This document shows, piece after piece, positions 2,659 through 57,059 of a DNA stretch of 64,000 nt. The stretch's first letter is position 1. Each line of letters starts with the position of its first letter. Below the pieces are notes generated by a model that did not search any database, was not told the DNA's origin, and saw nothing but the letters and a program-made list of their open reading frames with translations. Source of the stretch: Cladocopium goreaui. Taxonomy: Eukaryota > Sar > Dinophyceae > Suessiales > Symbiodiniaceae. The stretch spans positions 211,001-275,000 of the forward strand of contig CAMXCT020004035.1 in the NCBI GenBank assembly GCA_947184155.2. Direction: 5' to 3'. A program made the translations under genes and the position numbers.

Positions 2659-2669
2659 AGTAGGCTCAG

Positions 2670-4289: not shown

Positions 4290-4739
4290 CTACACCTGGG
4301 CCTCAGCCCGGCGCCTTCCCCTCGGGGAGACCCAAGCCCGCAGGCTCGATGAATTTGGGGCAGCCCAGCTGCCCTAAGATCAGCCCCTCAGGGCACTTCT
4401 GTCCCGCAGGACTCAAACAGCCGTGCTTTTGAGCAGCAATGGCTAAGAGCAGTCCAGGATAGAAACCAACGTCCCCACAACACTCCGTGTTATTTGGACT
4501 GGGTTCAATGTATATAATTATATATACTGCATACAATATACACATAGATATAGATACTGATATAGATAGAAATATAGATAGATCTTCATACATTCCCTCA
4601 AAAAATGAAAACCCATGTAAATCCATATTAAATCCATCTTAAATCCCTCTAAAATCCTGAAATCCCCATGAAATCCCCATGAAGTCCCTATAAAAACTCC
4701 CTATAAAAACTCCCTATAAAACTCCCATCAATCCGCAAC
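4290..4739. other. 5' flank of retroelement and short degenerate array, no gene
   Basis: Bases 4290-4440 are GC-rich and may be the 5' untranslated part of the retroelement. Bases 4500-4610 are AT-rich with a TATAGATA-like run. The rest is the degenerate AAATCCCCATG array listed separately. No credible reading frame was seen. Confidence 0.5.
4620..4735. repeat. Degenerate 10-14 bp array of AAATCCC / ACTCCCTATAAAA units
   Basis: Imperfect tandem copies of AAATCCCCATG drift into three copies of ACTCCCTATAAAA. The array touches the 3' side (in minus sense) of the exon at 4740-4822. Similar arrays occur at 8040-8200, 45176-45425 and 63220-63330, each next to a coding island. Confidence 0.6.
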
Positions 4740-10063: not shown

Positions 10064-10075
10064 TTTTGGCTCAAG
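10064..10075 (+). other. 12-nt match to the 3' end of the dinoflagellate spliced leader
   Basis: TTTTGGCTCAAG equals the last 12 bases of the conserved dinoflagellate spliced-leader RNA. Upstream bases do not match and it lies on the strand opposite the genes, so it may be chance or a relic. Confidence 0.3.
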
Positions 10076-27829: not shown

Positions 27830-27938
27830 CTGGTTGGTGGTTTTAACCCCTCTGAAAAATATGAAAGTCAATGGGAAGGATTATCCCATATATGAAATGG
27901 AAAATGAAAAATGTTCCAAACTCCAAACCACCAACCAG
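27830..27938. mobile_element. MITE family B copy
   Basis: CTGGTTGGTGGTTTTAACCC to CCAAACCACCAACCAG. Confidence 0.85.
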
Positions 27939-31500: not shown

Positions 31501-31559
31501 GATCGAGAGACCTTTAGGTACCATTTTGTTCCGGTTAATTCTGATAATTTTTAGAGCCT

Positions 31560-34289: not shown

Positions 34290-37200
34290 TAACTCACGGA
34301 AACCGAGCTGAAGTGTTTCCAGCGCTTGGTTTGGCAGCAGGCTTCAGAAAGATTAGTAAACATAAAACGTTGCGGCTGTTGGGCATACCACCGAAGCTTG
34401 TTTTCCAAAGACATTTGCTGTGGATGGAAATTGCATGTCCCTTCAAAGTTGCAAGAATGCAGGGGTGAGGCATGTCACCCTGCCTTTGGCAGCATTGTAA
34501 GTGACAGCACACGAGATTTCTTGTAAAGAAGCAACGCCCGGATGTTTGTTTGAAATTTCCAGGAACAAATATTTTTCGACAAGGGCCACATCACCACATG
34601 GGACTTTCAAAAAGCAATGCTCTTGAGCTGCATTGACAGCTGGTGAGCCTCCATCCACATTGTGCAAACAGACAACATCACCAGAAGTAATTGTTGCCCC
34701 AGAAAAAGTTTACAACGAGAGCTCTGCATGCAAGGCATTCCCACAGGAACCACGCCAGCATTGCATAGGAATGCCGTCATCTTCTTTGTGGGGCCCCCTT
34801 TTTGCATTTTGTAGGCAGGTGCCTTCTCTAAACAGTCTTGACTCTTCACCCAATGTATAGATGTGCCCTGCGATGACAGACTTCCTCAGAGAAGTTTCCC
34901 AATAGGTAGTGTTGCACAAGACATTCCCATGTTTTCTAGTGCCTTTGTGCTTCCTTTCCATGGTCCAGCATGCAGGTAATTGGCCATGCCTCTGGAGACT
35001 TTGACTATAATATGAAGTGACCAGTGCATCTTTGGCTCGAATTCTTCCGACCAGTCAGCTGCAACAGTTGCCTCCAATGCTGCTTCAACAAATGAAAGCA
35101 ATTGCTTGTAGTCAGGCTTTTCCAAAGCAGGGATGGATAGGCGATAGTCCAAAACTTTGCACCAAGCCAAAGAGCAAGTTGACCCCAGAAGACAAATGCC
35201 ATTAGGCAAGCAACAAATTTGGACATAGTGTGCCAGCACCTGGTACAGACCCAGAATCTCTGAGGATGCATCTGAACTTCCCAGCTTTTTTGTGGCCTCC
35301 CACTGCTTTGGGCAGAAATAGCCTTTTCAAATTGCATTTGTGAATGGCAGGCTGGGCCCAAAGTTGCACAAAGCCATGTGCCTTCCAAATCTCAGCCACA
35401 CCACTGGAAGCAAGCGGTTGGATCCACAAAAACAAATACCTAGTTCAGCACACCATTTGGGCAGAGCCCATGCATATAATCATGCATGTATTGGGTGATT
35501 GGTCTCAGAAGGTTCTGGGACTTCAGCTTGTCACTCAGCAAGAGTGAATGCTGGGAATAATCAACCCCAGAAGCCTGGCTCCACCTTCTTAACTCGGTTT
35601 TGTTGCCCTCTTGCATCCTTGCCCACGAGGACAGGATTTCTTGGTCTGTTGCAACATCCAACAGAGAGTTTCAGTCTTTTAAGACCTCCCTGTAAAAGTA
35701 CCTCAGAATGAGGATGAGCATATTTGTTGTCAAACATGTGCTCCAGGATCAACCTGAAACATTGGCCAATGCTGGCTGCCAGCTGTGAGACTTGCTCACT
35801 CCTCTTCCCGAGCAATGTCAACCAACTTTCAGAATTTGACAGCGTGGCCCCAAACTGGCAGATGAACAGTAAATTGCCCATGTATTCCTAGAATTCCCTG
35901 CCAATTGGTTGCCAGGGTGCAGTTCATCTACATAAAGAATGCAAGACCAAGGGTTGTTGAAGGAACCAGGGTTGTTGTCATGTACCTTGTCAAAATAATC
36001 CGCAAAGCAGCCACCAGCTGCATAAGCACCAGCCAAATAGTTAAAGATGTTGGCAAATGCCAATTCCACAGGGTCCTCTCCCAAAATCATAGCTGAAGGC
36101 CAGCAATGACCTGCTCAACAAACTCTGATTTGTTTCCTTTTGTGACTAGCAGGAATGCCTTCCTGGGCTGCCAAAGTCAATATTGCTTCCGGGGCTGACT
36201 GGCTGCAAAATGGGATTCTCTGTTTAAAACTTTGCAATTTTGGAAAGTCTGGCATGGCTGGCTGGAAGCATTTCTTTGCAGAAAGGTGATAAAAGTAATC
36301 TTGGACAATGTTGGAGTATGACTGTGTGAAAGGCAAAAACTAGTGTTCCATGGCCTGCTGCGGAACCTGCTGCTAACATGGCCTCCAAATATGTCATTTG
36401 CAGATTTGGCACACATTGCCTTGGGCCAGGCCTTGCTTCATGCAGTAGCCTTGCAGAAAGCTGTGCCCACAATGCTGTGCTACTGATTCAAACATATTCA
36501 AACAAAAAAGCCCTTGCAGGCAAACGGATTTCAAATGATAGCTCTTGAAGCCAAAACTGAAAAACAACAAGCAGAACCAAGGGCAGCACTGCAAGTTAGT
36601 GGTCACTTACTTTCATGCTGGAAAATATGTCTAGATAAGTATGTCAAGAGAAAGCCTAAGCGTTTCTGTTTTCCCCCACTGCCTGTATGATTTACCATTG
36701 CTGTGTTTGCATGGTTATTTACCACAAGGCAGCCCACGATCTTTTGTCTGACCAAGGAAATATTTACACTTCCTTTTGTTCCCCTGCTGCCTTTCTTGTT
36801 ACCAGTTGTTGTATTCCTGTCTTGAACTGAGACTGAGTCCCCCCAAAGTAGGGAGACTGGCACTTGTCACAGCCACTCACACTGCCACGGCATCTCACAC
36901 ATCCATAGATTCCTTTGAGGAAAGCTGGCGTGACATGCTTCGCTTCCTCAGCATTCTTCTTCACAATGGCCTTTTGCTTGGGCTCTGCTTTGGCTAGGGT
37001 TTTCTTAGAAGCTGGCCTCTTCATGGCAGTATCCAAATCATTGCCCTTCCTCTTGGTGAGCATGTGTTTGGCCTCAGCTTCATAATCCTCAAGGCTTTTG
37101 CCTGGGTGCCATCATTTCCTCCAGCAGGTGCAGCACAGTCAGACGGTGCAGGTAGAGGCAAAACAGCTGGAACTGCCGGCAAAGCTTTGGGAGTCAGGAG

Positions 37201-38200
37201 TCCCTTGGGCCGGCCCCATCTGAGAGCAAGGAGTTGCTGGAAGGAGGCTTCTCCAAGCTATCATTGTTCAAGATTTTCTGGCTCAAGGCATCCAAAGCTC
37301 TGGCCTGTTTCTCCATCATGTCAAAGAGATGGGTGGTCACCATACTGTTTGTAGGATCTTTCCCTGTCGAAGGCTCTGCTGGCAACTGCTGAGAGGTTGC
37401 CTGTGGAGTGGCCACAGCCCTGAGTTCCTTGGCAGTTCCGCTCACTGTGACTTTCTTGGCAATGCTTCCAAGGTTTATCATATGACTGGTAGCGAGCAAG
37501 CAGAAAGCCTGCAAGTGTTTATGTTCAAATGGAAATATGTATACGTGTCCATACGTGTGTGTTCAGGGATTATGTCATGGCTAAATTTTGACTTCAAAAT
37601 TATCAGCTTGAAAGCAGCCATCACCAAAGATTCTACAAACCCAGTGCCTCCCCAATGTCGTGGGGGCTAGGTGGGTACCTTGCCAAACCAGCATGCAGAG
37701 GTTGAGCCACCACAGCCTCGAACGTATCCAGCACAAAATTTGTACATGTCAAAAACTGGAGGCAAGACATTGGTGATTTCACCTGAAGGCTGACCAAAAA
37801 GGATGTCAAGTACTTCTTGGTGTCTTCTTTGAGGCTTTTCAACCCACACACTTTGATTCTTTTGATCAGCATGTGGGTAGCATCAACTGTGTTGATGCCA
37901 TTCTGCATCTGCTGCCATTCGCTTTGGGACAGGTAGTTCCAAGGCGTGGTCATGCTTTGATTGAAGAGGCTGCCCTTGATTCGAGAAATGCTTGCAACTC
38001 TGCCTTCGTGTCAGCAGTCAAGATGCCATTTTGAACAGCATCAGGACGCTTCAAGAAGTTAGAAGCAGCGAGCATTTGGACACCATTCACTTTGGACTGC
38101 AATGCATTCGTGGCACCAGCTGTGAACCAGCGTTCCTTTGGTAAATCGCTTCCATATCACTAATCTCCTTGACTAAGTCCTCAACGTCCCAAGTAGCCAT
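34290..38200 (-). pseudogene. Frameshifted copy of a repeated dinoflagellate gene family, function unknown
   Basis: Starting at an ATG at 38200 (MATWDVEDLVKEISDMEA), coherent protein continues in shifting frames: LPKERWFTAGATNALQSKV, FLKRPDAVQNGILTADTKAE, then MTTPWNYLSQSEWQQMQNG, a Cys-rich GCVRCRGSVSGCDKCQ near 36870, an ILYVDELHPGNQLAGNSRN stretch near 35930, VLDYRLSIPALEKPDYKQL near 35140 and MERKHKGTRKHGN near 34950. I count at least four single-base frame changes, for example after DMEA and after SSIKA, too abrupt for introns. I recall similar sequences as a multi-copy, unnamed family in Symbiodiniaceae proteomes. The D, ERKH arrangement could belong to a transposase, but this is speculation. 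Some interruptions could still be introns. Confidence 0.6.
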
Positions 38201-40042
38201 GGTGATCAAAGGATCTAGGCTAAGGTGAGCCCACAATTCCTATGGGCCCACTGCAGCAGAAGCAGAAGAGAATTGATTCTGCTAACCTTCAAAGTTAGAA
38301 TTATGACAGCTCCTTTGGGCATGGGATAAAGGAGTTTAAGCCTTTACATGAAAGCCCCTTTGGGCAGAAACAATTTAGTTCACAAAATAAAATGAAAGCC
38401 CTATCAGCAAAACCTGTAGCAAGAGTCGGTGGGAATGGGTTCTGGGACCCTTTAAGGTTAGAAGCATATAAACTTCAGTGGGCTCTCATACCCAACCCTG
38501 GACCTTTACATGAAAGCCCCTTGGGCATAAACCACAATAGTTTCAAAATAGCAGGAAAGGCCACTGGGCCAGAAGAAAACAAGTACACCACATGGTGTTT
38601 TTTTAAAATATTTTTTCTCCCCCCACAGTATTTTGATTCCACCCAAGTATGTTTTCATCCAGGCTTTCCATGCACTATGGGCATACAGCTGCAGCTATCA
38701 GGCGCAGATAGCATCGCCAGAAGGAACAGGGACCCCAGCCAACATGTAACTGATTTTGATCAAGTTCTTCAGGCTGGCAGGCAAAAGATGTGGGCCTTCA
38801 TTCTGCTTGAAGTGCTCAAGAGCATCCTGCCTGAGCAAGCGAGCAATTTGTTTACGTCTATCCTCATACTACCTGAGTTCCCGTATGCTTTAAAAACATG
38901 ATGAGTTTCAACCTGGTAACCAAGAATCAAAGCCTGATTGATGAATCTCGACATACCAGAGGCTCTTCCATCCATTGGATGAGGTCCAGGTTTGAAACTG
39001 TCGAGATACCATTGGATCAGTGGCTGAACCCCGTGCCTGACCCCTATTACTGGACATCCTGACAGCTTACACCTTGACAAGAAATGCAAAGGACACATGT
39101 CTGATGCACTAATGGAACACCAAAACCTGAAGCATCAATGTGCTATACTTGTGACAGCTTCAAAAAATGAAAGCATCAATGTGCTTTTTGGCTTAAAAAA
39201 TGAAAGCCCTAAAGGCTGCTTATGTAAAAACTACATTATTTTTTTGATAGTTGTGCCAAATAGTAAACCAAATTAATATCAAAATCTGAACAGTAAAAAA
39301 TATACTATTGTAGGTTCAAGTTAAGGTTCTGAATTGAAATGCCAACTGTTTGTTTTCCAATTTAGATTTCTGAATTGACATGGAGATTGTTTGATTTTCA
39401 ATTTGGAATTCTGAATTGAAATGGTGATCGTTTGATTTTCAAGGTAGATTTCTGATTGAAATGGTGAATGTTTGATTTTCTATTAGATTTCTGAATTTAA
39501 ATGGCGACTGTTTGATTTTCAATTTAAATTTCTGAATTGAAATGGTGACTGTTGGATTTTCAATTTCGATTTCCGAATTGAAAATTGCGACTGCTTTATT
39601 TTCAATTTAGAAACAGAATTGAAATTCTTACTGTTTGATAGTTTATAAGGTTTTTTTTAACCACCCAGGCTTTGCTGGAGTCAGTAAGATCTTAGGCGAG
39701 TACAAGTGTTCAAGCCATACTCACCCTCCAAGTTCTTTTGCCATCCACACTTTTTGACGTAGCCCACCAAAGCTGCCACATACGCCTTCACCCGTAAAAC
39801 CTCTTCCCATCGTTATAGTAGGCATCTCATCCTGTGCGCTTCTCCAAGCTTCCAAGCAACTACTAGCCCAGAAACTTTCCTGAACCAACCTCCACTAGAA
39901 GTTCCTCGAGGAGGCACGAACTCTGGTACCTGAGAATGAACAATACTAAATGCATAGATCAAGAAACTTGAATCCCACACAGAAAGCAAAACCATAGAAA
40001 CATATGATGCTTGAGAAAATGCATGAATTTCCTATCAGATAC
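38201..40042. other. Non-coding stretch upstream of the pseudogene
   Basis: ACATGAAAGCCCCTTTGGGC occurs at about 38347 and, nearly, at 38507, and AATGAAAGC pieces recur to 39210, suggesting decayed repeats. The 41-bp array follows (39331-39642). Bases 39660-40042 show nothing clear. Confidence 0.4.
39331..39642. repeat. Tandem repeat of about 41 bp, seven to eight copies
   Basis: Units read GAATTGAAATGGTGACTG then TTTGATTTTCAATTTAGATT with scattered changes. Confidence 0.85.
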
Positions 40043-40522
40043 ATCTTGAGTAGAGGACGGCCCAGTCGAAGCTTGAGAGCCTTTTTGTTTGGTGCAATAA
40101 AGAAGCTTCTTCACCTGGTCAGGAGTACAGGTCAACCTCCCCCATTGCTTCTGGAACTGGACCAGGTAGTTCTTTGGGGATGCATGCTGCTGAAGCCTCA
40201 GAGGGGGTACTTCAGGAGTGGCAGGTGCCAACAAACCAACATCAGGGTGAACTGGCAAAACCGTAGTTGCACTGGCTGGTGAAGACGCGCAGATACCTGG
40301 ACTTGGGCCAGGTGCCATTGCCATAGAAGCTTCAAGTAGTGGTGCACCTGGGTGTTTGGCTTTAGAACCTTCCACTTCTCGCAGAAAACCAGATCCACTA
40401 CTGGGCTCACCTGGTGGCTGTTCTGGCAGGTCAGGCATCAGGCCATCCATCTGCAGCCTGTACGCAAAGTTCACCAAGAGGTCCAAGGTCTGCTTTTGCA
40501 ACTCTTCTTCATTCAAAGGATC
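40043..40522 (-). CDS. Long exon, 160 codons, Pro-rich protein of unknown function
   Basis: Excellent acceptor CGTCCCCTCTCAG, then DPLNEEELQKQTLDLLVNF and AYRLQMDGLMPDLPEQPPGE (helix, then proline-rich), a low-complexity Pro/Ala/Ser middle, and KNYLVQFQKQWGRLTCTPDQ followed by VKKLLYCTKQKG near the end. GAT/GTATCT closes it in phase 0. It may be the upstream part of the decayed gene at 34290-38200, or a separate gene; nothing decides. A second minus frame upstream (to 40995) is open but shows no signature. Confidence 0.5.
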
Positions 40523-41261
40523 CTGAGAGGGGACGACAGCGGGGCCAAAAACAATGAAGTGATGAGTATGACAAAATGAAGGGGTTGGCCGCCATCACCC
40601 TCCCTCTTCATCACTACAGGTGGAAGTGGTGGAACATGTTTGCATTGCTTTGTTGCTTGTGTTACATGCCCATGAGGTTCCTTTAAGGTTTTTTCTATAA
40701 AACTATGCTTATTACTGATATTGCAACCAGTTGAACAACTACAAACTCCTGACAACCAAAACATTCCCATGCATGAGCGCACAAGAGTCCCAAACTTGCA
40801 TGCGCATTCCAAAACTTTGTAGCTTGCAGGGATGGAAAGCAACACAATTGACACTGGAGGACTCTTCTGCTCAGAGTTCAAATTGGCGTGCGTTCGCGCG
40901 TGCTGGTGACAGCATCTCTTGGAGCAGAAAACGGACGCTGCGCAGGTTGAGGGGCAAGGGAAAAAATTGCGACTTTCTGTTGAACTTGTACACACATGTA
41001 GACATATTTACTTGTGTATATAGTATATATGCATATAGAATGACGTTTGATTACGTTTGTGCGAGGAGGAACGAAATAGACCCCAAAGGTCCCTGCCACA
41101 TACATATATATATATTCCCTATAGATATTTTGATATTTATAGACTCCCTTTCCGTAATGGATTTCCCAAAACGGCGGACAACAAGCCAACCAAATCATCG
41201 GCTGAGCAAATCCAGGGATATATCGGATATGGATGAGATGGGAGTTTTCTGCTTAGAATAA

Positions 41262-42175: not shown

Positions 42176-42445
42176 TACCCATATTACCAAAAAGTAACTA
42201 TAGGGGTTATATGGATATAACATGATATAACTATAGAAATATAGCCATTTTCAATGGATATAACTATAGAAATATACAATTTTCAATAGTTTTCTGTATG
42301 TTTTACCAGGCCGAAATCAATCACTTGACCCAGCCTCTGTTGCGATCCATCCGATCCATCCCTTCAGACCCCGTTTGAACGACCAGCCTGTGGTATCTAC
42401 GATTGAGTCCAGTTTGCCCTTCACGTCCTGGGAAGTGACGACTTT

Positions 42446-42644
42446 CTGGTTGGTGGGGGCTACCTACCACTGTGGTTAATATACTGTTAATATATGGTTA
42501 TTATATGGTTAATGATGGTTAATAATAATCTGGGTGGTGGGGGCCAACCTACCCCTCTGAAAAATGATGGAGTGAAAGTCAGTTAGGATGATGACATTCC
42601 CAATATATGGGAAAATAAAAGCCATGTTCCAAACCACCAACCAG
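42446..42644. mobile_element. MITE family B with duplicated left end
   Basis: CTGGTTGGTGGGGGCTACCT at 42446 and again CTGGGTGGTGGGGGCCAACC at 42530, with a single right end CCAAACCACCAACCAG at 42644. The 84-bp gap is TTAATATATGG-like repeat. Confidence 0.75.
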
Positions 42645-43745: not shown

Positions 43746-45013
43746 TGAATTTGTGTATGATTCAAGCCCAACTATAGTTATTAGGTATTATCAACTATTA
43801 TCATTGGTTACTGTCATTAGTTACTAGCATTAGCTAGTCTTTAGGAAACAATAGTTACTGATGATGTTAATAGTCTAGTATATTTTAAAACCATTATCAT
43901 GGTTAACCAATGGGTTACTATGGTTAAACATGATGATAGTCTAATGATGCTTATTAACTAGTCACAATGCCCATGATGGTAATATATCAAACAATAGTCT
44001 AGTTTATAGGTACAACTATAGGATAGTATAATAGTTGCAATCATAGTAAATATACGATTCTCATTGTAATCATGGTTTATGGTTTTAGAGTTACTGATGC
44101 CAGTGAAAAAATGTAAAATCATGGTTTCTAATGATAATGTTATTTGTAGTTACTAGTTATAGTAGTTATAGTTATGATGCTTGATATTGTATTAAACTAT
44201 GATATATTAAAACCATTACTAGTGATTACAGTTACCATAGCAGTTTACTGAAACCATTGTAAAGCCATAGTTACTAATGATAACTATAGTTATATAGTTA
44301 CCATATGTTACCATATAGTTGCCATATAGTTACCATAGTTGCCATAGTTACCATTTATCATAGGCTATCCTCTGGCAAACAAATATAGCTATGGAAAATC
44401 ACCATCTGTTACTAATGGTAACTGTATTTATATCCATGTATGATATATTACTGTACCATTCATCGTAATATTATGGATATAGTAATATATGGATATAACT
44501 AGTACAAGTACCATTGTAACATATCCTGGTTGGTGGTATACCTCGTCAGTTGGGATGATGAAATTCCATTCCCAATATATGGAAAAATAAAATTCATGTT
44601 CCAAACCACCAACCAGATGGTCATTTAATCAACAACAATGGTGATTTAACCAACAATGGTCGCTGAAAATCAATAAAAAATGGAAGTTTACCAACAACCA
44701 TTGTACCATTGTAGCATATCATAGTTATTTAGTTAAGATGGTGATCATAGTAACTATAGGGGTTATATGGATATAACTATAGTAATATAGCCATTCCAAA
44801 TGTAATATTACATGTTGTAACTATAGTTATACCCATATTATGGATACAGTAATATATGGATATATAACTAATATATATATATATATAATACATGTACCAT
44901 TGTAACATATCATAGTTATATCCATCTTACATATATATATATATCCATCATAGTTATATCATAGTTATACCATAGTTATATCATAGTTACATGTACCATT
45001 TGTAATATATCGG
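43746..45013. other. AT-rich non-coding stretch downstream of gene A
   Basis: Dense TAGTTATAGTTACCAT-type runs, a left half of family A (about 44365-44440) and a family B copy (44526). Confidence 0.45.
44526..44616. mobile_element. MITE family B, short copy
   Basis: CTGGTTGGTGGTATACCTCG to CCAAACCACCAACCAG. Confidence 0.85.
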
Positions 45014-45129
45014 CTAAACCATCCAAACCTCGCCCCCCCGGGCCCCGGCCTCCACGATGTCGCCGTATTTCTCGTGGGTCGTTTCCGTGACCTCCGAGGC
45101 CAGCGCCTCCGAGGACTCGGCCAAGTCAC
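45014..45129 (-). CDS. Gene A exon 8, terminal
   Basis: Acceptor GAAAATCCAG; the frame reads DLAESSEALASEVTETTHEK then YGDIVEAGARGGEVWMV and TAG. It accepts one base from exon 7 to make Ser. A GAG/GTTTGG donor at 45028 is also possible, so the gene might continue. High GC and strong third-position bias. Confidence 0.65.
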
Positions 45130-48100
45130 CTGGATTTTCGGCACGCCGAGGACTCGGAAATGGTGATTTCGTGGTGATTTTATTGGGATTTTATTGGGAT
45201 TTTATAGGGGATTTTATAGGGGATTTTATAGGGATTTCATGGAATTTCAAGGGGAGTTCATGGGATTGAAAGGGGATTGAAAGGGGATTTCTTTGGATTT
45301 TACAGGGATTTTTGATGGAATTTAATGTATGTTAATACGATGTTAAGGGATTTGATAGGGGTCTTAATGGAATTTCATAGGGGATTTGAATGGGATTTCA
45401 ATGGGGATTTAGTGGGATTTAGCTCAAGCATCTGAAAATCTAAGCACTTCCATGTTGATTGTTTTATGGTGACTATTTCATATTTGAAAACCATCCCCAC
45501 AATGGATAATCGTCCGATATGACTGGCTAGTCGACCACACCCAGAGTTTCACATCTCAAGCACGCCGCCAAGACACAATAGCCGAGTCAAAGCCCAGCCA
45601 AACTGTGCAATATCATGAATTCTATAGGCATTTTAATATCCAGTAAATTAATATAGAATTTACTGAATTCTGAAGGCATTAACATGGAAGCTAAATCAAT
45701 GGATTATATTCAGGGTCACATTGCGCAGAATATTGGGGATGATCATTAATCATCCACCATGGGAAAGCCTATAAACCAGCTAATGTATTGGGGATATACC
45801 AAAAAAAGGTCTTGGGGGGCGGCCGGGCGGCTTTCCCATGCGTTTTACGGCAAAACTGGTAGATTATTGGTGAGGTTACACCGCCCGATGGTATATTGGG
45901 GATTAGCATTACCTGCCGGCAATCAAACATGGCTAGCTGGAAATCCACCATTTAGTTCGATGATTTTCCCATTAATAAAGCCTCTATTTATAGGGGATTT
46001 TCCAGCTAGCCACCATTCATAGATGATTTCCCAATAAACCAATTTGTATAAGTCCCTATAGCCTATAATACTTAATCAGCCTGGGTTTGGTGACTGTTCA
46101 GTTGTCTGAAAATTTTCCTTCCATGTTCAGAATAGATGTTTGATTACCAGAAGGCTACCCTCTGGTAATTTAACATAGCTATTGAAAATCACCATGCTAT
46201 TAATGGGAAAATCCACTATTTCTATGGTCATTTTCAATAGCTACGTTAGTCATTACCAGAAGGCTACATACTGTAGCTTTGCCCAAAAACGACGACCGTT
46301 TTTTTTTTCCCCTCCGCGGCGCCATGACAATCGATGGGGAACGTGGGACCCAGCGTTTTCAGTAAAATGTGTGATCCTTGGAGGGGTTCCATCAAAAACA
46401 AGACATTCCTATACCCAAAAAAAAGGATCTCGGTTGCCCTCTGGTAAATTAACAGTTGGACCCTGAAAATCAACTTTTAGAGGAAACCAGGGTCTACGTT
46501 AATTTACTGGAGGGTATATCCCCAGGTTTGTAGATTGTTTCAGTTCTCTCATTTCTGCAAACGTTCCACATTTGTCTGGATCAGGGTTGCTCAAAAAACA
46601 AATCCCAGCAGGCAGATTGCCCAATCGGATGAATAGATGGATACGTATATTGATAGATAGGTATTATTAGATAGGTTTTGATAGATAGAAGTATTAATAG
46701 ATAGAAATACTGATAGATAGATATTGATAGATTAAAAAAATATTGATTGATAGATACATTGATAAAAACAGATATATTGGTAGATTGATATTGACAGATA
46801 GAATACGGATTGATAAATATATTGATAAACAAATATATTGATAGAAAGATGTTGATAGATATTGCTAGATTAATGTTAATAGAAAGATATCGATAGATAG
46901 ATATTGGTAGTTATTGATAACCATTGATAGGTATTGAAAGATGTGAATGGTTTATAGCTAGTGTTGGGTTTTGATAGTTATTGACAGATGTGGATAACTG
47001 CTGTCGCATTACATACATATTATACAATATATTAGATCATATCTATGTATATATTATATTATATTACATCATATTATATTATATTGCATTATGTTATATT
47101 ATATGATATCTTATTCAAGTATTCGATGTCATATCATATCATATGATATCATATTATATTCTATTATATATATAATCATATGTATATGTATATATATACA
47201 TATCCATGTGTATCCCCATTATATCTCCGTATATCTGTGGTTTTAACGGGGTTCATTACCCATCACTTCCCCCTGCCGGATCCGGTGCACCGAACTTCTC
47301 CACGACTGTCTGATTCAGATCCTCCAACTTGTCAATCAGATCCTCGCGGAAGACGCGAAAACTGGGGCCTTTAGATAACTTTATAAGTTTTTATAAAAAC
47401 TTTAGATAACTTAAATCTGGGGCCTTATAACAACTGGGTACGCAAAAAAAAACAACAATTCGACAACTAGGGGGGCTGTACCCTTATGTAGCTTGTAAAG
47501 ATATCTTTAGATTTGGAGATGATCATCCAGCTGGAAATCCCAACCGCTGAAATGTGATACCCTCTGGGAATGAAACATGGCAATTGGAAATCCTCTATAC
47601 ATGAAGGCTTTGACGCGAAAAAGCATCAACGCATCAATGACCAGCTAGCCATGTTGGATGACACCGGAGGGTAACCATCAAATACCCTCTGGTAATGACT
47701 AACATAGCGAACTGGAAAGATCCACCATTTTTTATGGGAAAATCCACTATTTCTATCGTGATTTTCCATAGTTATGTTAGTTTACCAGAGGGTATAGGAA
47801 CTTGATGGGAAATGATGGGATATCATCCAACCACTATGATAATTTGCCTCCACCAAAACCCTCGGCTGAACAATTGCGGTGTTCCGGCATTTCCAAAAAA
47901 TCGAATGTCATAAGATTGAATATGGTCCCATTTTCAAACACACTCATCCCAGACTTGGTTGATATATCCGTATCGTACCATATGTTTGCCGTTATGATCC
48001 ATTACATCCTAATAATATGGTTGACTAACAAAGTGAACATCTCAATGTTTATATAATGGTTAAAAGCCGGCTATCCTAGAAACTGGAATCATATTGCTTG

Positions 48101-51100
48101 TATACCCCGTGAGATCTCCCACAAAATATCCCGTAGATCGATCTGGTTTATCATGTTTTATTGTCCTCACATAGTTATGCAAACGTTTACCAGAGGGTAA
48201 ACTGGCTGGTCAGCATCTCCATGGTATATTGACAACATGTAGACAATGTTTTTTGCGGTTGGTCACTCGATATGATCCCTACGTAAGAGAACTCCCCACA
48301 AAACTATTAGATCTACAAATATCAGCATCATATACTGGTTGGTGGTATACCTACCCCTCTGAAAAATGGGAGTTCGTCAGTTCGGATGATTATTCCCATA
48401 TATTATGGAAAAATAAAAGCCGTGTTCCAAACCACCAACCAGTCATTGTACCATGTAGTAATATATCATGTCTATCTCATTGTATCTACCCTCTGGTAAA
48501 TTAACAGTTGGACCCTGAAAATCACCAATTTTTAGAGGAAACTAATCTTCCAACCCCTATCTACCAGGGTCTATGTTAATTCACTGGAGAGTATATACAA
48601 ATATATCATTGCATCTATATACAAATATGTCACTATAAGATCCTACGACATCCCGTTGGTCACTTGGTCACAAAAACTGGTCCCAGTCTATCCAAGTACA
48701 TCCCGATAATATGGTTACCTTACATAGTCAGTGTTTATTGGGAGGTTAACTATTATGTAAGGTAACCAACCATAGAAAGGTAACCAACATAGTTGACTTA
48801 AGTAAACATATATGTTGATTATTAGTTACCTTACATAGTCAGTATGTATACATGTTTCTTGTTCAAGTCAAATCCCAATTCTTGTTGGATAAATCCTGTG
48901 TTTGTGAAAAAAACATCCCAAGTTTTACTACTGTATATAATCCATATTATTATCCATATTATATCTATCCATATTGTTGGCTACGTCTGCCATCATCTTC
49001 CACTATGTCCCCAATTTTGGCGTGTTTTATACCCCCAAAGTATCGGAATGCTAAACATTGTATCTCATGATATTTGTGGATTATACAAGGTGTTGCCTCC
49101 CAGTTATGTTAATTGGTATTTCAAAGCCACCATAAACCCTAGTGATACTAGTGAAGTAGAGCAACTTGGTTAAGAAACTGGAGCACCAATTAAGACTGGT
49201 TTAAACTCATTCAGTTCAGTAAATCTAGTTACCCTCTGGCTATTTAACATAGCGAACTGGAAAATCGCCATGTTTAATAGGTAAACCATCTATAAATGGG
49301 CCATTTTCCATGGCTATGTTAAATAACCAGAGGGTAGTATTTCCATGAAATCCCCCATGAAAACCGCCCACCTTCTGCCCCATCATCCCTGCAACTGCTT
49401 GGGTGGTCTTAACAGCGATCTGCACCTGAAACAGCAGTTCCCTGACCCCAAAATGGCGGGACTTCAGCGATGGGATTTATAGATATTTATAGGTGATCTA
49501 AAAATGTCTAAAATATTTCTTACGACAAAAAAGCTGTTTTCTTTCGCTCTGTGAACGAACGTTGTAATATGGTAGATATATCTACCATTTGGTTATTGAA
49601 CATAACCATGGAAAATGGTTGATTTTCCCATTAAAACCTCCATTTATAAGGGATTTTCCATGGCTATGTTAGTCATAACCAGATGGTATAGTATTCTACA
49701 GTCAGATGGGACTATCAACGGATTTGGATCGGGCACCACGGGTTCATGCCAGCATGCCAGGAACCGGGGAGTCAACAGCTCCAATAAACGTTGCAAGAAA
49801 TTGGGATTTCACATTGCCAATCAGCCAGATACCCTGCAAAAAATTATATAAATTCTTTGCTGGTTAGTAGATATTCCCATTAATACCAAAATGACTAGTT
49901 AGGATTAAAGTATCCATGTAAGATTGACCTAGTTCACCAGCCAAATGTGGTTTTTGTCACCCAAGAATTCATGGCAAAAGTGGATGAAGCGGGGAAAGAA
50001 CTTGATCTAGACTAGATGAATCTAGATGGATCCAAAATTCAAAGGTTGGGTCTTACTGGCAAAACATGGTGGTTTCACCAAGAAAAGCGATGGTTCTCCA
50101 TATCAGTTACATTCCCTATGATCTTCCCCCATAGTACCCCTGGAATAGGGGACTATCATCCGGGGTCCCTCACTATTATCATTAGCCCCGTAATGTCACC
50201 TGGCGTGCTGGAAATCACCCATTGATGGATAATTCTCTCCTATGTTCCCATGAAAAGCTTAAGGATGTTTCTGCCATCTGAAAAATTACCAGAGGATAAT
50301 TATCACCAACATTCCTCACGATATTCACATTTTATTTGGGATATTTATAGATAGAAATCACTTTTAATCATAGATGGTGTATCCGTGTATCCCATCAAAT
50401 CATTTATCCCCCCTTGCGAGAGCAACGTTGCAACGTTCAGCAAGCAAGAAATTGCTACTATCATCCTATGATCATCCCTTCAAGTCATATTTCACTAACC
50501 TGAATAGTAAGGCCATTTGGGGATGATTTCCCTTGTTAACCATGATTCCAGGGTTCGGGAGAACAGTGAGGTCGTGATGAAATTTACCCAGATTCTATGG
50601 TATATCCTGTGAAATCATCCCTCAATGGTGAGACTGCAAGCAGTTTCAGAAAATCTGGCAGTTTCTGAAAATCTCCTGGCAATACCAGAGTTTCGCCACT
50701 ATCAAATATCACAAAATTCCGTATTATATCCCATTAATGTGGACCATATCATCCCATTATTCAACCATTTCGCAATATGGAACAAACCAGTGTATGTGCT
50801 TCTTTTTGCCTAGCTACCACATACATTTCGCCATATAGATCAGTTATTATCCTTTTTTGTACCCCAAACGAAACATTTTTACTACTACATACCATACATA
50901 TTCAGCAATGATCATATCATTCTCCCAATATTCAACACACGTGATCCCATTTCGCCACATTTCGAGACGATGTTTTTTGTTGGCGATAAAGATACATATT
51001 TGGGACCATGGAATGGGTGTGTTTACTCTTAGGGCCTAGGGCTATTGAGAAGATTGGTGTTGCAATTTGCATATCAGGGATATAATGAGATATTTTCGGG

Positions 51101-54100
51101 AAATTCTAGTACGTAATTTAATTCATGGGATAGTGGGGATATACCATGTAGATCCATATAGTAGCCAAAAAAATCAAGGTTTCCAGCTTTTCGATTTTTT
51201 GGGTGGTTGGCTTTCAGGTGAGGCCCCCCATAAAAGTCCAAATGTTCACCGAGTCATGTGCGTCAACTTTGCGAGTTCGTCAACAGGGGACCTCACCATG
51301 TTTGTTTGTATGGGTTTATCTCCTATCGCTACAAATCCTCATTCATCTTCATGAATCCTCCATATAGCCATGCAGATTCTCATTACATCCCATTTTGTTT
51401 ATAACCACACCCAGAGTTTTGCAACCAAACAGCCCCAGACCTGTTCCATGGCTGAGCTGTAGAAGGGCACATACCTTTCCAGCGTGGTGCTGATCAAGGT
51501 CTTGAACGCGGTCAAATTTTGACCTCAAAATCGCGCGAGTTTTCTGACCATGAAGGTACAACAATGGCTAAGAATGGAGGAATCATGGATTAATAAAGGT
51601 GAGACATTGACAGGAACTCATACCAACAGTTGGCAACATCCAGGTTCAACAAATGGCGAATACACCATGCTTTTCGGCCATCAAATCAGAAAGAAACTAG
51701 AGATAAAGTTGGAAAATACATAATGGGACAGGCAAATGGGGAAATAACCTGGGAAGAGTAGGGTTTTTAACCACGGGATTCTTAGGTTTCCGAACAAGCA
51801 TAATCATAGTTTTTGGAGGTTACTATTTAGACTGGGATACTATATAGGAATATTACAATGGGGTCATAACATGTTATAACTGGTCCCGTCCCCTAATAAA
51901 TACGTATCATATTTCATATTATACATCACATTACGTTACGGTAACTACATTTACCCTCCAGTAAATTAACATAGACCCTGCCAAATAGGGGTTGGAAGAT
52001 TAGTTTCCATTAAAAAATGATGATTTTCAGGGTCTATGTTTATTTACCAGAGGGTAAATGTACGGACTTTTAAATATACTAAGAAACAGGTATACAAAAA
52101 AATACCTCCGGGAAGGTTCCCCTTGGCCCGCCCTCCACATATCTAAATGTCGTTAGCGTATATCTATAATATGATATTATATGTGCATCATATGATATAG
52201 ATGTTATATTATATCATATTATATTATATTGTGTTACATATTGTATTATACATACCTACTATTTGTATCATATCATATCATATAATATCATATCATATCA
52301 TATCACATTGTATTTTATCTTATTATAGTATAGTATATATGTGTTATTACATAATATTACGTTATATCATATTATATCATATTATATTATATTATATAGC
52401 ATATATCATTATATATTATGTTATATTATGTATAGTCTATTTTAGATAATATTCTCTAGATTTTATTAAATTGTATCATATATATATATGTAATTCTATA
52501 ATATGTATATATATAATATCAATCACCTTCATTCTATGGTCCGAAATATGTCCTTTCATCCCCAATAAAACACGTGGTTTAGGTTTCTGGCGGTGGGATT
52601 AAGAGAAACGAGTCGGCTTAGTTGGGCCCCAGGTTGAACCCACGATTTTTACGGTTGGCTTTGTGATGATATACCTATAGCTAGATGGGCTTCAAAACTA
52701 ACTTTAACTTGAAATAACATGTTATATACTAACCCAAAAAAAATAGAAGTGGGTACACGGTACAATCCTACTAAAATAGTGATCAATGACTTTTCTATCT
52801 TCTGGGGGTCAATTTTTCGCTATCGTTGGGGTAACATTAACCAACTGAAAAAATAGGGTGGCCCACCAGGGGGCCACATTTCGCAAGTTGTGGTGATCTT
52901 CACAACAAAAATCTAACTCACAATCATCAGGGAATCAACCAACTGTCTTACCTGGAGTTGTCTCAGAATCTGACTTTGGACCTTTCCAGATGTGCCAAGT
53001 GGCTCACGGTGGTGGTTGCATTCAAGGCCTGATTGAACTTGCTGAGAGAAGCGTTGAAGCGACCCTCAGCCTGCATCACCTGCCGGTGCTGCGCAGGGAG
53101 AGCTAGGTTGCCTTTTAAGGGGAAGATATGATGTAACGAGTATTCACGGGTGAATCTAAACCAAGAAATTAGGGTTAATATGTGTTATTTTTAATTAGTC
53201 ATATAAACCTTAACTATGGCAACTATGGTTTATAACTGGTGAGCTATGGTTTTTGATAGATATGTCCATACTATACCATAATGGGGTTTATAAACCAACA
53301 TATCGGGGGGGCCTCATCTTGTATTACCGCACACTGGAAATGGGTGCTTCTACAATGGCGGTCAAAAGCTGGATTCGGAACCAGACTCGTGAACACGACC
53401 GCAGACCATGGTTGCTTGAGAAAGCCCCAAAAATGAAGTACCCTCTGGTAAACTAACATAACTATGGAAATCACCATTCTTAGTGGGTAAATCAACTATG
53501 AGTGGAAACCTCATTCTTTGGGCGCTTCTTCTGGTCACTGCTATCGGAATCTTCCTGAACAGGGGAGTTTGATGGAAACATGTCAGAAGAAGTCCTTATT
53601 CCTGTCTACTCTTAGATACCCTGCTCGAAAAAAACAATTCTTACCCGGGCAAATGTCTACGCCCACGGTAATCACAGTAGTTCGTGGCTTTACCTAGGTA
53701 CGGGAATCGTAGTTTTCCAGGTTCCAGGACATCAAATGTGTTCGTTACAAAAAATGTCCCACCGATGGTGGTCTTCCTCTCATCACAGTAAATGGTGGCT
53801 ATGAAGCACAGGAGAAAGAATCTTAGCTGATGGCCCAGTTCTCCATAAATCCGAATGCCAATCTGGTCGGTCTGGTGCTTTCATGAAAAAGATAGGGTTG
53901 AAAAACCAGCAATCCATTTTCACCCTGGTTTATCAGCTATATCCCCATATTTTCAGTGCTTAAAACCCCATAAATCCGCGCCATTGATGGTTAAATCGCA
54001 TGAAATTCCTCTTGACATCCGGGTGGGTGGGAAACTCAATTTGTAGCTCCAACTGGCTCCCTATGCAAAATAGGAAAAATCGATCACCATAATTCACCAG

Positions 54101-56203
54101 AATTCGCTCCCTTCACCGCTACTGGATAGAACATCCCAGCTTCGAAATCTCAAAATCACAGAAATTCCCAAGTTCCAGTCCCAGCAGTGACATCCCACCT
54201 GACTGTCCAAGTCAGTGATGGCATTGCCGATCTGCGAGGTCACTTTGCCAATGCCTCCACTCATGGCATCTGCACCTGCTGCAGCACCTGCCTCCAGAAT
54301 CTTCGACCAATCTGGGAACTTGTCCTTGGCACAAGTAGACCAGCTCTGGAGGATCATCCAAGACCTGGTGGTAAAATTTACCCTCTGGTAAACAGACAAA
54401 AAGCTATTGAAAATTGCCATTTATAGTGGATTTACATCGATTTACCCATTGAAAATAATGATGTTCCATAGCTATGCAGCTATGTTAAATTACCAGAGGG
54501 TACAGTTTGCGAACTGGAAAATCACCATCTTGAAGTTCGGTAAATCAACGAACTAAATTAGGGCCATGGCTTCAAGTCCGCAAAGTGTTGAATTGCCAGA
54601 GGGTAAGCCCAGTGAGTAAGAACCCTAGTGGGCTCCCAGAAAAATGGAGGTTTCCTAAGTCTGCGATGGGACGTAGCCCCAGTTCTCATCCAGTCGTCAT
54701 GGACCATGACTTAGTGACTTGAAACCCGTGGTGACTTGGGGATCCTACATTTTAAGAAACCCCCATATATCATCTGGTTGGTGGTTTCAACTCCTCTGAA
54801 AAATATTAGTCAGTTGGGATGACTATCCCATATATTATGGAAAATAAAAGCCATGTTTGAAACCACCAACCAGTGATTGTGTTATAACTATGATTATTAA
54901 TCACTTACGAGCCGTGGGATAATCCAAGTGGAGTGTCTCCACTTATATATGATGATTATGATGGGAATATGAATCATGAGGATATGAATCATAGGCAAAA
55001 AGGGCGGCAATCTCTTGGGGATTCCTTTTGGGGTTCATTAGGATCTAGTTTCGAGGAAAATCATTTGTAAATTGGGATACAACGGGATGTTTTTGTACGG
55101 GGATATATGTCGCTTTAACAATATGATGAGTGATATTTTGCAGGATCAATGAATCTCAACTTGATGTATTTTGAATGATATTTGGATGGTGTAGTTTACC
55201 CCAAATTTGGGCTATCAAATAGGAGGGAAAAGACCAGTGGATGGAATGGGGTACCCAATTTTTTGGACAAGCTGAACCAAGAATCTGTCCATCATCTAGA
55301 GCCTCACAGAGTATCGAATTTTGAACTATACTGTACCCGTTAAGTTTGGATTCTCAGTCGGGATGCATGACCAAAAACTATACCCCAGGCACATATGGGA
55401 ATTTCTGAAACTTCGGAAGTGCAAGAAACTGCAAGAATCACCTAAAACGCTCTAGAAACGTGGGTTTCCAAGAAACATCCACATTGAAAACTGTGGATCA
55501 TCCAACAATACTTGGGGCTTGGGGCAGGTGGGCTTATTAATGGCTATAACTATGTACTAACCCTAACCCAAGGGATTTCAAACCCCAATAACTCTGGTTT
55601 TTCATAACATTACATAACCAGTTCACCGGAGCTGCACCAACTGGGACATATGAGACTATCAGAGCCCATTCATCGTGTTAACCTATGCGAACATTTGCAC
55701 ACAGTACATGTAATATAGTGTTTACGTTTTATGTATATATATATATATGTGCATATATAATTATACAATATTCTACAGCATTTATAAAGTAATTAATATA
55801 TACTATGATGACTCTATATATTTCTTGTATGTCATGACTCTATGTCCAACATAGGTCGTTCTCAATGACTTGACCCATGCCCAACTACCCTGCAGTGTCA
55901 AACATGGCCGGCTGGAAAAAAAACGATCAAAACTGAAGGTTTATTGAAGCTGGGAACATCATCGAACTAATTTTGTGATTTTACAGCAAGCCACGTTTGA
56001 TGACCAGATATTCACATATTCACATTGACTGGTCGGTGAAAACTCAACGAGTTTAACACATCGAATGGGAGGGCAAATGTTTGCAAACTCCTATGGAACT
56101 GCCCAGTCGCATGCACTTGAAGAAGCTGAAGTTCATCATTCTCACAATCCTCTGCCGCAGCCAGGAGAGCGGCGGTGACACAGAACGACAGAAAGCGGTT
56201 CAT
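45014..56203 (-). CDS. Gene A: predicted secreted protein, eight exons, 232 aa
   Basis: Exons: 56203-56117, 54345-54199, 53088-53008, 51543-51475, 49833-49765, 49425-49372, 47342-47267, 45129-45014. All phases agree (0 throughout, except one base carried from exon 7 to 8) and the sum gives 232 codons plus TAG. The N-terminus (MNRFLSFCVTAALLAAAEDC) is a signal peptide with n, h and c regions, followed by ENDELQLLQ. The body is alanine-, serine- and charge-rich and helical (KILEAGAAAGADAMSGGIGK, DLIDKLEDLNQTVVEKFG, SEALASEVTETTHEKYGD), with no domain I recognise. Two Cys residues remain in the mature part if cleavage is after AAA. GTAGCAG about 20 nt before the ATG could be a trans-splice acceptor. 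Introns are 0.3-4.5 kb and carry families A, B, F and G. Exon 3 has a competing frame. Confidence 0.65.
45176..45425. repeat. Degenerate GGGATTTTATTG / GGGATTTCATGG array
   Basis: About twenty imperfect 10-12 bp units immediately upstream (minus sense) of exon 8. Confidence 0.8.
45924..46014. mobile_element. MITE family F-like copy
   Basis: CATGGCTAGCTGGAAATCC at the left pairs with GGATTTTCCAGCTAGCCA at the right. Confidence 0.7.
46156..46266. mobile_element. MITE family A copy
   Basis: TACCCTCTGGTAATTTAACA to GTCATTACCAGAAGGCTA. TTACCAGAAGGCTA also lies directly left of it (46143-46157), as if it had inserted into or beside another copy. Confidence 0.85.
46435..46516. mobile_element. MITE family A2, short copy
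   Basis: TGCCCTCTGGTAAATTAACA to GTTAATTTACTGGAGGGTA; arms TGGACCCTGAAAATCA and CAGGGTCTA. Confidence 0.8.
46628..46990. repeat. Degenerate GATAGATATTGATAGATA array
   Basis: GATAGAT and ATTGATAGAT units with drifting spacing. Confidence 0.75.
47000..47190. repeat. ATATT / ATCAT AT-rich simple sequence
   Basis: Repeated ATATTATATT and ATATCATATG units. Confidence 0.75.
47267..47342 (-). CDS. Gene A exon 7
   Basis: Frame DLIDKLEDLNQTVVEKFG then APDPAGG, after TCTTCCGCGAG; donor GGGGGAA/GTGATG leaves one base (A) to form Ser with exon 8. An upstream acceptor (GGCCCCAG at 47362) would add FRVFRE but break the phase. Confidence 0.65.
47558..47673. mobile_element. MITE, mixed A/F ends
   Basis: TACCCTCTGGGAATGAAACA to GACACCGGAGGGTA; inner arms AACATGGCAATTGG and CTAGCCATGTTGG resemble family F. 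Confidence 0.7.
47683..47794. mobile_element. MITE family A copy
   Basis: TACCCTCTGGTAATGACTAA to GTTAGTTTACCAGAGGGTA; 9 bp from the previous element. Confidence 0.9.
48174..48199. mobile_element. MITE family A, right end only
   Basis: TATGCAAACGTTTACCAGAG then GGTA with no left partner nearby. Confidence 0.5.
48335..48442. mobile_element. MITE family B copy
   Basis: CTGGTTGGTGGTATACCTAC to CCAAACCACCAACCAG. Confidence 0.85.
48487..48593. mobile_element. MITE family A2 copy, opposite orientation
   Basis: TACCCTCTGGTAAATTAACA to TTAATTCACTGGAGAGTA; the core ACTAATCTTCCAACCCCTAT is the complement of the A2 core at 26445 and 51952. Confidence 0.85.
48600..49229. other. Gene A intron part
   Basis: Repeated GGTAACCAACATAG / TTACCTTACATAGTCAGT pieces (48700-48845), otherwise no structure seen. 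Confidence 0.4.
49230..49336. mobile_element. MITE family A copy, 35 bp from exon 6
   Basis: TACCCTCTGGCTATTTAACA to TTAAATAACCAGAGGGTA. Its right edge is 35 bp from the donor side of gene A exon 6. Confidence 0.9.
49372..49425 (-). CDS. Gene A exon 6, 18 codons
   Basis: Acceptor CTGCTGTTTCAG, VQIAVKTTQAVAGMMGQK, donor CAGAAG/GTGGGC; phase 0 at both ends. Both splice sites are among the best in the window. Confidence 0.7.
49583..49688. mobile_element. MITE family A copy
   Basis: TACCATTTGGTTATTGAACA to GTCATAACCAGATGGTA. Confidence 0.8.
49765..49833 (-). CDS. Gene A exon 5, 23 codons
   Basis: Acceptor TAATTTTTTGCAG, GIWLIGNVKSQFLATFIGAV DSP, donor CCCCG/GTTCCT; phase 0 at both ends. Only this frame is open. 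Confidence 0.65.
49834..51474. other. Gene A intron 4
   Basis: Family G element at 50484-50590 and a family A right-end relic at 50284-50299 (TTACCAGAGGATAAT). Otherwise non-coding. Confidence 0.45.
50484..50590. mobile_element. MITE family G copy
   Basis: ATATTTCACTAACCTGAATA at the left, core GGCCATTTGGGGATGATTTC, right end GTGATGAAATTTACCCA. Confidence 0.75.
51475..51543 (-). CDS. Gene A exon 4, 23 codons
   Basis: Acceptor CTTCATGGTCAG, KTRAILRSKFDRVQDLDQHH AGK, donor GGAAAG/GTATGT; phase 0 at both ends. The other two frames contain stops. Confidence 0.7.
51952..52056. mobile_element. MITE family A2 copy
   Basis: TACCCTCCAGTAAATTAACA to GTTTATTTACCAGAGGGTA; core ATAGGGGTTGGAAGATTAGT. 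Confidence 0.9.
52190..52510. repeat. ATATC / ATATT pentanucleotide-like simple sequence
   Basis: Runs of ATATC and ATATT with irregular breaks. Confidence 0.75.
53008..53088 (-). CDS. Gene A exon 3, 27 codons (frame contested)
   Basis: Acceptor CTCTCCCTGCGCAG, then HRQVMQAEGRFNASLSKFNQ ALNATTT, donor ACCACC/GTGAGC; phase 0 at both ends, 20 of 27 codons ending in G/C. A competing exon (53041-52952, QVQSGLECNHH...ILRQLQ) has a better donor, CTCCAG/GTAAGA, also phase 0, but poorer codon bias. Either keeps the gene in frame. Confidence 0.5.
53438..53504. mobile_element. MITE family A, left half only
   Basis: TACCCTCTGGTAAACTAACA and the AGTGGGTAAATCAACTATGA interior, with no right end. Confidence 0.6.
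53505..54198. other. Gene A intron 2 part
   Basis: No element, repeat or exon-like island that I can support. Confidence 0.35.
54199..54345 (-). CDS. Gene A exon 2, 49 codons
   Basis: Acceptor GATGATCCTCCAG, SWSTCAKDKFPDWSKILEAG, AAAGADAMSGGIGKVTSQIG, NAITDLDSQ, donor AGTCAG/GTGGGA; phase 0 at both ends. Amphipathic, with a small-residue-rich middle. An alternative acceptor (ACCACCAG at 54365) would need a different upstream phase. Confidence 0.7.
54379..54502. mobile_element. MITE family A copy, 33 bp upstream of exon 2
   Basis: TACCCTCTGGTAAACAGACA to TTAAATTACCAGAGGGTA. Confidence 0.9.
54503..54606. mobile_element. MITE family A, second partial copy in tandem
   Basis: Starts inside the motif TTTGCGAACTGGAAAATCAC and ends GAATTGCCAGAGGGTA; no own left end. 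The copy at 58756 shares its GAAGTTCGGTAAATCAACG interior. Confidence 0.65.
54774..54873. mobile_element. MITE family B copy
   Basis: CTGGTTGGTGGTTTCAACTC to TGAAACCACCAACCAG. Confidence 0.85.
54874..55897. other. Gene A intron 1 part
   Basis: Non-coding; a TATATATA run at 55735-55750. Nothing else identified. Confidence 0.4.
55898..56000. mobile_element. MITE family F copy
   Basis: TCAAACATGGCCGGCTGGAA to CAGCAAGCCACGTTTGA, in intron 1 about 115 bp from exon 1. Confidence 0.75.
56117..56203 (-). CDS. Gene A exon 1: start codon and signal peptide
   Basis: ATG then NRFLSFCVTAALLAAAEDC and ENDELQLLQ, donor CTTCAA/GTGCAT, phase 0. A hydrophobic core of about 13 residues with small residues at the end fits a signal peptide cleaved near AAA-ED. 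The first ATG in the island was chosen; no in-frame upstream ATG precedes it in the GC-rich part. Confidence 0.7.
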
Positions 56204-57059
56204 GGCGATTTCACAGCGCGGATCTGCTACGATGGAAGACTTCAGTTTTGTGGGGCTTGAGCCGAAAAAATCCGAGTAAAATGGAACAGTCGAAACGACT
56301 TGGGCACTGGAATCGAAGAGCTGGAAGGTAGCTAGTCATTTCCAATACGAAAATCAAATTCCAACGACATCTTTCCCCTCTGTGGTAGTTTTGATGGGAA
56401 ACTAAAAAATCACTATCATCAGCAATTCACGCAATTTTTCAGCACCTGCACCCTTATTTTCGAGGTGGGATGCGGAAACCGCAGTTTCAACCAGTTGGTT
56501 TCCCTACAAGATGATCTATATCTGGCTTGGATTCCAAAAGAAAGCATCGTATGTATAGTAACCCCCCACAAAGCTAGAAGAGTAAAATCCAACATAGTCA
56601 TAAATTATCATAAATTGCTGTTCTATCCTTTTTTGGGGGTTGCTAAATACAGTTGTAGAGATCTCTTTAAACCCAAGCCCACCTGAATCATGTGCGTTTC
56701 GAACATAGGGTCGCCCAAACTCACATGCTGGACGTCATTGAGGGACGTCCATCATTCTTCGACAAACACCATGAATCTCCCCCGAAAAAAACCTAGGTTC
56801 TGTCCACATTTTCCCCATCATATACCTGATATACCTGCTCATATGCCCCAGATGATCACCCTTGTTGTTGGTGAAATTCCAATATGTGTTTGGTTACCAT
56901 CCCCATTTTGCTGGCTTCAATGTCCCGACAGGGTGCAACCCTAGACTACTTTCCAAGCTACAAGATGAGGCTCCATAACTATAGTTGATTTATAAATCCC
57001 ATGATAGAAGTGATATTCCCCATAAACCCCGTTTACGTTAACCAAGCTTTAAGCAAGAT

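Follow-up and report, generated by a model that had tools for sequence, protein, structure and literature searches.

Exchangeable apolipoproteins, apolipophorin-III among them, are secreted proteins made of amphipathic helices, and the trichocyst matrix proteins of ciliates combine a leader and an acidic segment with an acidic helical protein. According to an excerpt of PMC11453091, at least about 50% of dinoflagellate genes lack annotation. Models of dinoflagellate genes are fragile because the exons are short and the splice signals different; for Cladocopium goreaui, the published values, as excerpted from PMC9412976, are AGG for 96.1% of acceptors and GT, GC and GA for 36.6%, 43.6% and 19.8% of donors. 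Retroposed genes can be recognised by relicts of the dinoflagellate spliced leader (DinoSL) between -50 and -100, intron-containing retrogenes being known (PMC6050394, in excerpt), and the introners of Symbiodinium microadriaticum are described with 4-bp duplications in the available part of PMC9860276. Here we analyse a gene on the minus strand of a 64,000-nucleotide window of the C. goreaui genome (C4035:211001-275000 of an assembly of 1,165,616,438 bases in 6202 contigs; positions given without a contig are those of the window), where a sequence-only reading had assembled eight small exons into a secreted protein.

We consider it highly likely that these minus-strand islands are exons of a real, intron-rich dinoflagellate gene, and that the gene belongs to a small family with no fewer than two distinct members here. 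It probably encodes a secreted, helix-rich protein, the earlier reading being real in substance and wrong in detail. Computed support comes from a coding signal, from homology to a paralog over most of the length and from a hydrophobic leader; it comes further from amphipathic-helix periodicity, from two shared N-glycosylation sequons and from the DinoSL relict that precedes each of the two genes. The locus resembles the 'dark' genes of dinoflagellates in its many short exons, its non-canonical splice rules and the lack of any Pfam or PDB match above threshold, but differs from them in that one family is resolved here, its exon structure being constrained by an intronless paralog. At least about half of dinoflagellate genes are without known function, and in this case the paralog provides an internal check on both the gene and its boundaries. 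Word searches of the literature returned no description of the family, gene identifiers being outside the reach of such searches.

Coding signal and an intronless paralog

The region was scored with codon frequencies learned from aminoacyl-tRNA-synthetase exons (1493 codons), which come from unrelated genes of the same genome, and with a simple exon-chain model that uses the published splice frequencies; the window from 4.6 kb on, on both strands, served as background. The score of 83.2 bits lies well above those of local shuffles, whose maximum was 34.6 bits with 200-base blocks and 27.4 bits with 1000-base blocks (0 of 200 shuffles reach the region in either case). When the introns of the gene itself served as background, the region scored 126.1 bits; 40 shuffles in 200-base blocks peaked at 55.6, the joined introns scored 18.1 and the plus strand 62.4. 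Among 24 strand-tiles across the window, of which the region is one, five have higher scores, every one of them within two other coding-rich stretches, and the remaining 18 score 19.0-62.0 bits. The GC content of the exons is 49-66% versus 38% in the introns (two islands were cut one base off). The frame chosen by the sequence-only reading has the top sum of the three sense frames in seven of the eight islands, exon 5 being the exception, and an antisense frame comes out slightly ahead of the sense frame in islands 1 and 4. The best-scoring path contains seven exons, omits exon 3 and extends some exons into the introns, and it therefore defines islands and frames, not base-level ends.

The argument by which the gene had been proposed, that eight compatible exons would be unlikely by chance, does not survive. 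Phase-compatible, eight-exon GT-AG chains of at least 232 codons were found in 20 of 20 dinucleotide shuffles, and the longest eight-exon ATG-to-stop GT-AG chain, 569 codons in the real sequence, was at least 485 codons in every shuffle (n=20). Phase agreement is uninformative because random sequence of such composition allows equally phased chains. The claim of a multi-exon gene on the minus strand is instead borne out by a coding score above shuffles together with a paralog whose sequence runs in the same order.

This paralog (L057), of 285 amino acids and also encoded in this genome, was found by searching with a chain redrawn under dinoflagellate rules (AG|G acceptors; GT, GC or GA donors), so that the protein can no longer be described as one without relatives. 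The final model aligns with it at 27% identity over 217 amino acids (pairwise E 3e-18), compared with E 1e-5 for the rebuilt model of the sequence-only reading, and collinear protein homology was found with L057/L059. Spliced alignments at a penalty with controls support exons 1, 2, 4, 5 and 6, not exons 7 and 8. Searches with the paralog of genomic and viral contig collections returned 26 and 10 pattern matches, respectively, and 0 relatives.

A few weak matches were seen elsewhere in the same genome. Those on C593 and C3985 were confined to the exon 7/8 junction of the sequence-only reading and were gone with the refined model, and that on C6106 comprised short stretches or stop-containing ones only. 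At C136:667300-667900, the first forward frame matches the paralog leader and the segment that follows it at 36% over 47 residues, with E 5e-8 when only two loci were searched and composition was left uncorrected, and E 3.4 genome-wide, and without an in-frame start codon; it is possibly a decayed or distant leader exon. At C945:146100-146900, the third forward frame holds an open helical stretch that matches paralog residues 90-195 at 26% (E 9.2) and may represent a distant family member.

Exon structure and splice sites

The sequence-only reading gave no exon boundaries, and the model compared here is a rebuild. All eight islands are present and can be joined from the ATG at 56203 to the TAG at 45014, but several boundaries are wrong; the rebuilt chain has 234 amino acids where 232 codons to the stop had been stated, and the stop at 45014 is not certain. 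The rebuilt model has AG|G in three of seven acceptors and GT in all seven donors, and its boundaries are unlikely because the published C. goreaui values differ (four of seven acceptors are not AG|G, and every donor is GT). Under the AG|G rule, exons 2, 4 and 8 probably begin at other positions. The refined model has AG|G in seven of seven introns, with five GT and two GC donors, its boundaries having been chosen with the rule in mind. The same applies to the synthetase exons, whose ends were placed by eye in 15 segments, giving AG|G in all nine acceptors that could be placed and five GC and one GT donors; automatic spliced alignment of eight kinesin loci proposed 20 introns, several being forced, and 14 of the 20 have AG|G.

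For the individual exons, all of them on the minus strand, codon scores are log-likelihood ratios from a training set enlarged to 2891 codons, and similarity to the paralog is given as the number of 1000 shuffles that reach the real score (nine tests, uncorrected). Exon 1 (56115..56203; 14.7 bits) contains the start codon, a signal-peptide-like leader and an acidic segment ending DELQLLQ; the leader aligns with that of the paralog, the score of the acidic segment is reached by 9 of 1000 shuffles, and six phase-2 donor options exist for the 3' end (56142, 56127, 56115, 56109, 56103 and 56100). Exon 2 (54199..54364; 25.9 bits, 9 of 1000) lies between the acceptor CCACCAG|G and the donor CAG|GTGGGA, its refined start at 54364 replacing 54345 in the rebuilt model. 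Exon 4 (53004..53079; 16.5 bits, 39 of 1000) has the acceptor CGGCAG|GTG and the phase-1 donor GTGA|GCCACT, holds the shared sequon FNAS and has identical boundaries in all three spliced alignments. 

The island read as exon 3 (53510..53554, EDSDSSDQKKRPKNE; 10.3 bits, 128 of 1000) did not hold up as a normal exon. It is skipped in three of three spliced alignments, and exon 2 joins exon 4 without an insert in the paralog alignment, which together place it outside the conserved protein. On this comparison it is probably absent from the main transcript, though it codes as well as some other exons. Exon 5 (51441..51523; 10.0 bits) had been read in the frame KTRAILRSKFDRVQDLDQHHAGK, which 490 of 1000 shuffles equal in score against the paralog, whereas the corrected frame, QNLTAFKTLISTTLERYVPFYSSAMEQ, has a paralog score of 59 that none of 1000 shuffles reaches. 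An interim exon 5/6 junction ending ERELLFQVQIAV, which was part of the search query that led to the paralog, gave way to ERYVPFYSSAMEQ|VQIAV once the paralog was known.

Exon 6 (49372..49425, VQIAVKTTQAVAGMMGQK) is weak alone (5.3 bits, 143 of 1000) and is taken up as far as 49376 in three of three spliced alignments. Exon 7 (47267..47342; 15.9 bits), with the phase-1 donor GGGGAA|GTGATG, appears partially in one of the three alignments, and exon 8 (45029..45129; 34.2 bits), with the acceptor ATCCAG|GT, partially in two; the joint score of both against the paralog is reached by 112 of 1000 shuffles. Exon 8 would end either at a donor, GGCGAG|GTTTGG, or by read-through to the TAG at 45016-45014. 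A possible exon 9 (42317..42427, DVKGKLDSIVDTTGWSFKRGLKGWIGWIATEAGSSD followed by a stop) scores 11.4 bits, and its comparison with the paralog is neutral, the real score being reached in 304 of 1000 shuffles. The 3' end would lie either at 45014 or in this ninth exon at 42427-42317.

It is quite possible, at somewhat less than an even chance, that the exons are real but part of a longer gene, which would continue through exon 9 or into the coding stretch at 40.5-34.7 kb. The donor-like GGCGAG|GTTTGG stands just upstream of the exon 8 stop, a longer version of exon 9 (42463-42317) lifts the gene-finder score from 99.8 to 109.4 bits, a gain of 9.6 bits, and a single gene forced to extend to 34.7 kb scores 251.2 bits. 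However, the scorer is blind to gene borders and hence joins neighbours freely, exon 9 is without clear similarity to the paralog, and the paralog ends at 285 amino acids. The sequence downstream of the gene, at 34700-40600 on the minus strand, is itself a second coding-rich stretch with many exons; six of its open reading frames were searched against Pfam and gave no match.

Predicted protein and its possible role

The hydrophobic N-terminal leader and the helical mature protein described in the sequence-only reading are supported by hydropathy, by helical periodicity and by structure prediction for exon 2. The leader is first basic and then hydrophobic, with a mean Kyte-Doolittle value of 2.35 over 11 residues (2.66 in the paralog), and after the hydrophobic stretch small residues precede the acidic segment, which ends DExQLLQ. 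The net charge of the mature protein is -14, and that of the paralog -24. In both proteins the helical moment peaks at 100 degrees, at a height reached by 0 of 300 shuffles in either. Exon 2 alone, modelled from a single sequence, is predicted as two helices (predicted local distance difference test 77 in the best of five models and 57-62 in the others; predicted template modelling score 0.38). N-x-S/T sequons number four in the window protein, compared with a mean of 1.16 in shuffles (P 0.018), and two in the paralog (P 0.33); FNAS and QNLT occur in both proteins.

The statement that the protein has no recognised domain stands, as profile and sequence searches of Pfam and the PDB gave nothing above threshold. 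As first assembled, the protein matched two sub-threshold Pfam families only (E 0.15 and 0.67) and no PDB sequence up to E 10. The paralog and the refined protein matched 22 and 7 Pfam families at E up to 10, all under their cut-offs, and 5 and 10 PDB sequences, the best at E 0.062 and 0.16 and none above threshold. 

In dinoflagellate proteins bound for the plastid, the signal peptide precedes a transit peptide that is basic and rich in Ser and Thr. Since the stretch following the leader is acidic here (EDCENDELQLLQ), plastid targeting was set aside. 

The best overall explanation, which we hold to be somewhat better than an even bet, is a secreted, glycosylated helical-bundle protein that may bind lipid or other apolar surfaces. 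Judged from its sequence, the protein is likely to be secreted, and a lipid-binding role, taken alone, is put forward only tentatively. The mRNA would be trans-spliced, and the leader would direct the protein into the endoplasmic reticulum. The acidic segment ending DExQLLQ could form the N-terminus of the mature protein or be cleaved off as a pro-peptide. The rest of the protein, once glycosylated, would fold as a bundle of amphipathic helices and act extracellularly or inside an endomembrane compartment, in its lumen. Among molecular roles, the likeliest would be to bind lipid or other apolar surfaces reversibly, in the manner of exchangeable apolipoproteins. A secreted amphipathic bundle is consistent with the weak matches to apolipophorin-III, Apolipoprotein and Clusterin. 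The likeness to the exchangeable apolipoproteins lies in the predicted secretion, in the amphipathic helices and in the weak profile match of the paralog to Apolipophorin-III (PF07464), which at 18.2 bits is below the family cut-off of 36.3, so that the protein is not assigned as a member. However, Apolipophorin-III is absent among the seven Pfam families listed for the window protein, and the apolipoprotein-type matches stand among those of unrelated helical families, some ranking above them.

In our ranking of these hypothetical roles, binding of lipid or surfaces would come first and a structural or granule protein next. The latter would be an acidic helical protein that is kept in an extrusive organelle, in the cell covering or in mucilage, and not a lipid carrier; it is conceivable, at well below an even chance. 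The leader followed by an acidic segment, the acidic mature proteins of both genes and the helical periodicity are all traits common to ciliate trichocyst matrix proteins and fit it; however, a literature word search on those proteins returned nothing close among the papers listed. 

DinoSL relicts, origin and status of the gene

An 18-base piece of DinoSL occurs in the genome, with at most two mismatches, 676 times in forward and 691 times in reverse orientation, compared with 19 and 6 times for a reversed control. Upstream of the gene, at 56256..56267 on the minus strand, the sequence TTTCGGCTCAAG agrees in 11 of 12 bases with TTTTGGCTCAAG and lies 52 nt before the ATG; a relict of the paralog, TTTAGGCTCAAG, lies 57 nt before its ATG. 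Relict-like sites number three in 127,976 window positions, including that of this gene, or about 0.002 per 100 nt, and a longer 15-base pattern with at most three mismatches does not detect the relict at 56267-56256. A relict upstream of the coding start, as in DinoSL-tagged retrogenes, is thus present in both the window gene and the paralog. A second DinoSL relict in the window, an exact TTTTGGCTCAAG at 10064-10075 on the plus strand, may mark another retrogene downstream of it.

With its relict and its intronless coding frame, the paralog fits a retrocopy, and the positions of both relicts resemble those of the DinoSL-tagged retrogenes in the excerpted account (PMC6050394). In contrast to the paralog, the window gene holds six or seven introns despite its relict, and on a retrogene origin these introns would have been kept or regained. 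The window gene itself may descend from a retrocopy. A more specific version, which we regard as rather unlikely, is that both genes stem from a DinoSL-tagged mRNA copy, the window gene being an old retrogene refilled with introns and the paralog an intronless descendant; six or seven introns would then have been gained while the relict and the order of the protein were kept. If true, the two genes would form a within-genome, before-and-after pair for intron gain. An intronless and an intron-rich gene that both carry the relict could serve to time intron gain relative to retroposition.

It is improbable that the gene is decayed and has lost its expression. Exons 6 and 9 are weak, but the eight refined exons are free of stops before the final one, and codon scores are positive in eight of eight. 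That there is no gene and only a chance run of open islands is very improbable, for although phase-compatible chains by themselves arise readily, as in 20 of 20 shuffles, the coding score and a collinear paralog found by search counter it.

Repeats and neighbouring sequences

One kinesin intron (C3546, reverse strand 1504-1631) consists of a 128-base element that runs GTTT-CTGGTTGGTGC ... CCACCAACCAG and is followed by GTTT. The target duplication, GTTT, thereby supplies the intron donor. With its inverted ends and this duplication, the element looks like a member of an introner family and resembles the introners of Symbiodiniaceae. Pairs of nearly the same introner ends occur in the window at 12423-12527, 27830-27938, 42446-42644, 44526-44616, 48335-48442 and 54774-54873; no exact copy of the introner-like ends was found at the intron boundaries of this gene.

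The sequence TACCCTCTGGTAA and its near copies (at most two mismatches) number 48 in the window, with 1.7 expected. Eighteen of the 48 sites lie between 45130 and 56114, many copies falling within the introns of the gene. No fewer than 16 pairs of copies are inverted relative to each other, at a spacing of about 70-110 bases, and the family resembles miniature inverted-repeat transposable elements. A further region of about 2.3 kb, at 31553-33845, is made of nested TTTAATCCT/AGGATTAAA inverted repeats.

An Rfam search of the window gave no match, nor did a Pfam search of ten other window open reading frames at E up to 0.1. At the start of the window (1-4300, minus strand), two open frames of 1109 and 539 amino acids have 57-58% GC, compared with 34-48% in most of the window, and have no Pfam match up to E 0.1. 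On contigs C1 and C2380, synthetase genes lie in long stop-free frames with 59-68% GC, compared with 39-47% at the other loci from the same search, and these two contigs are probably bacterial contamination in the assembly.

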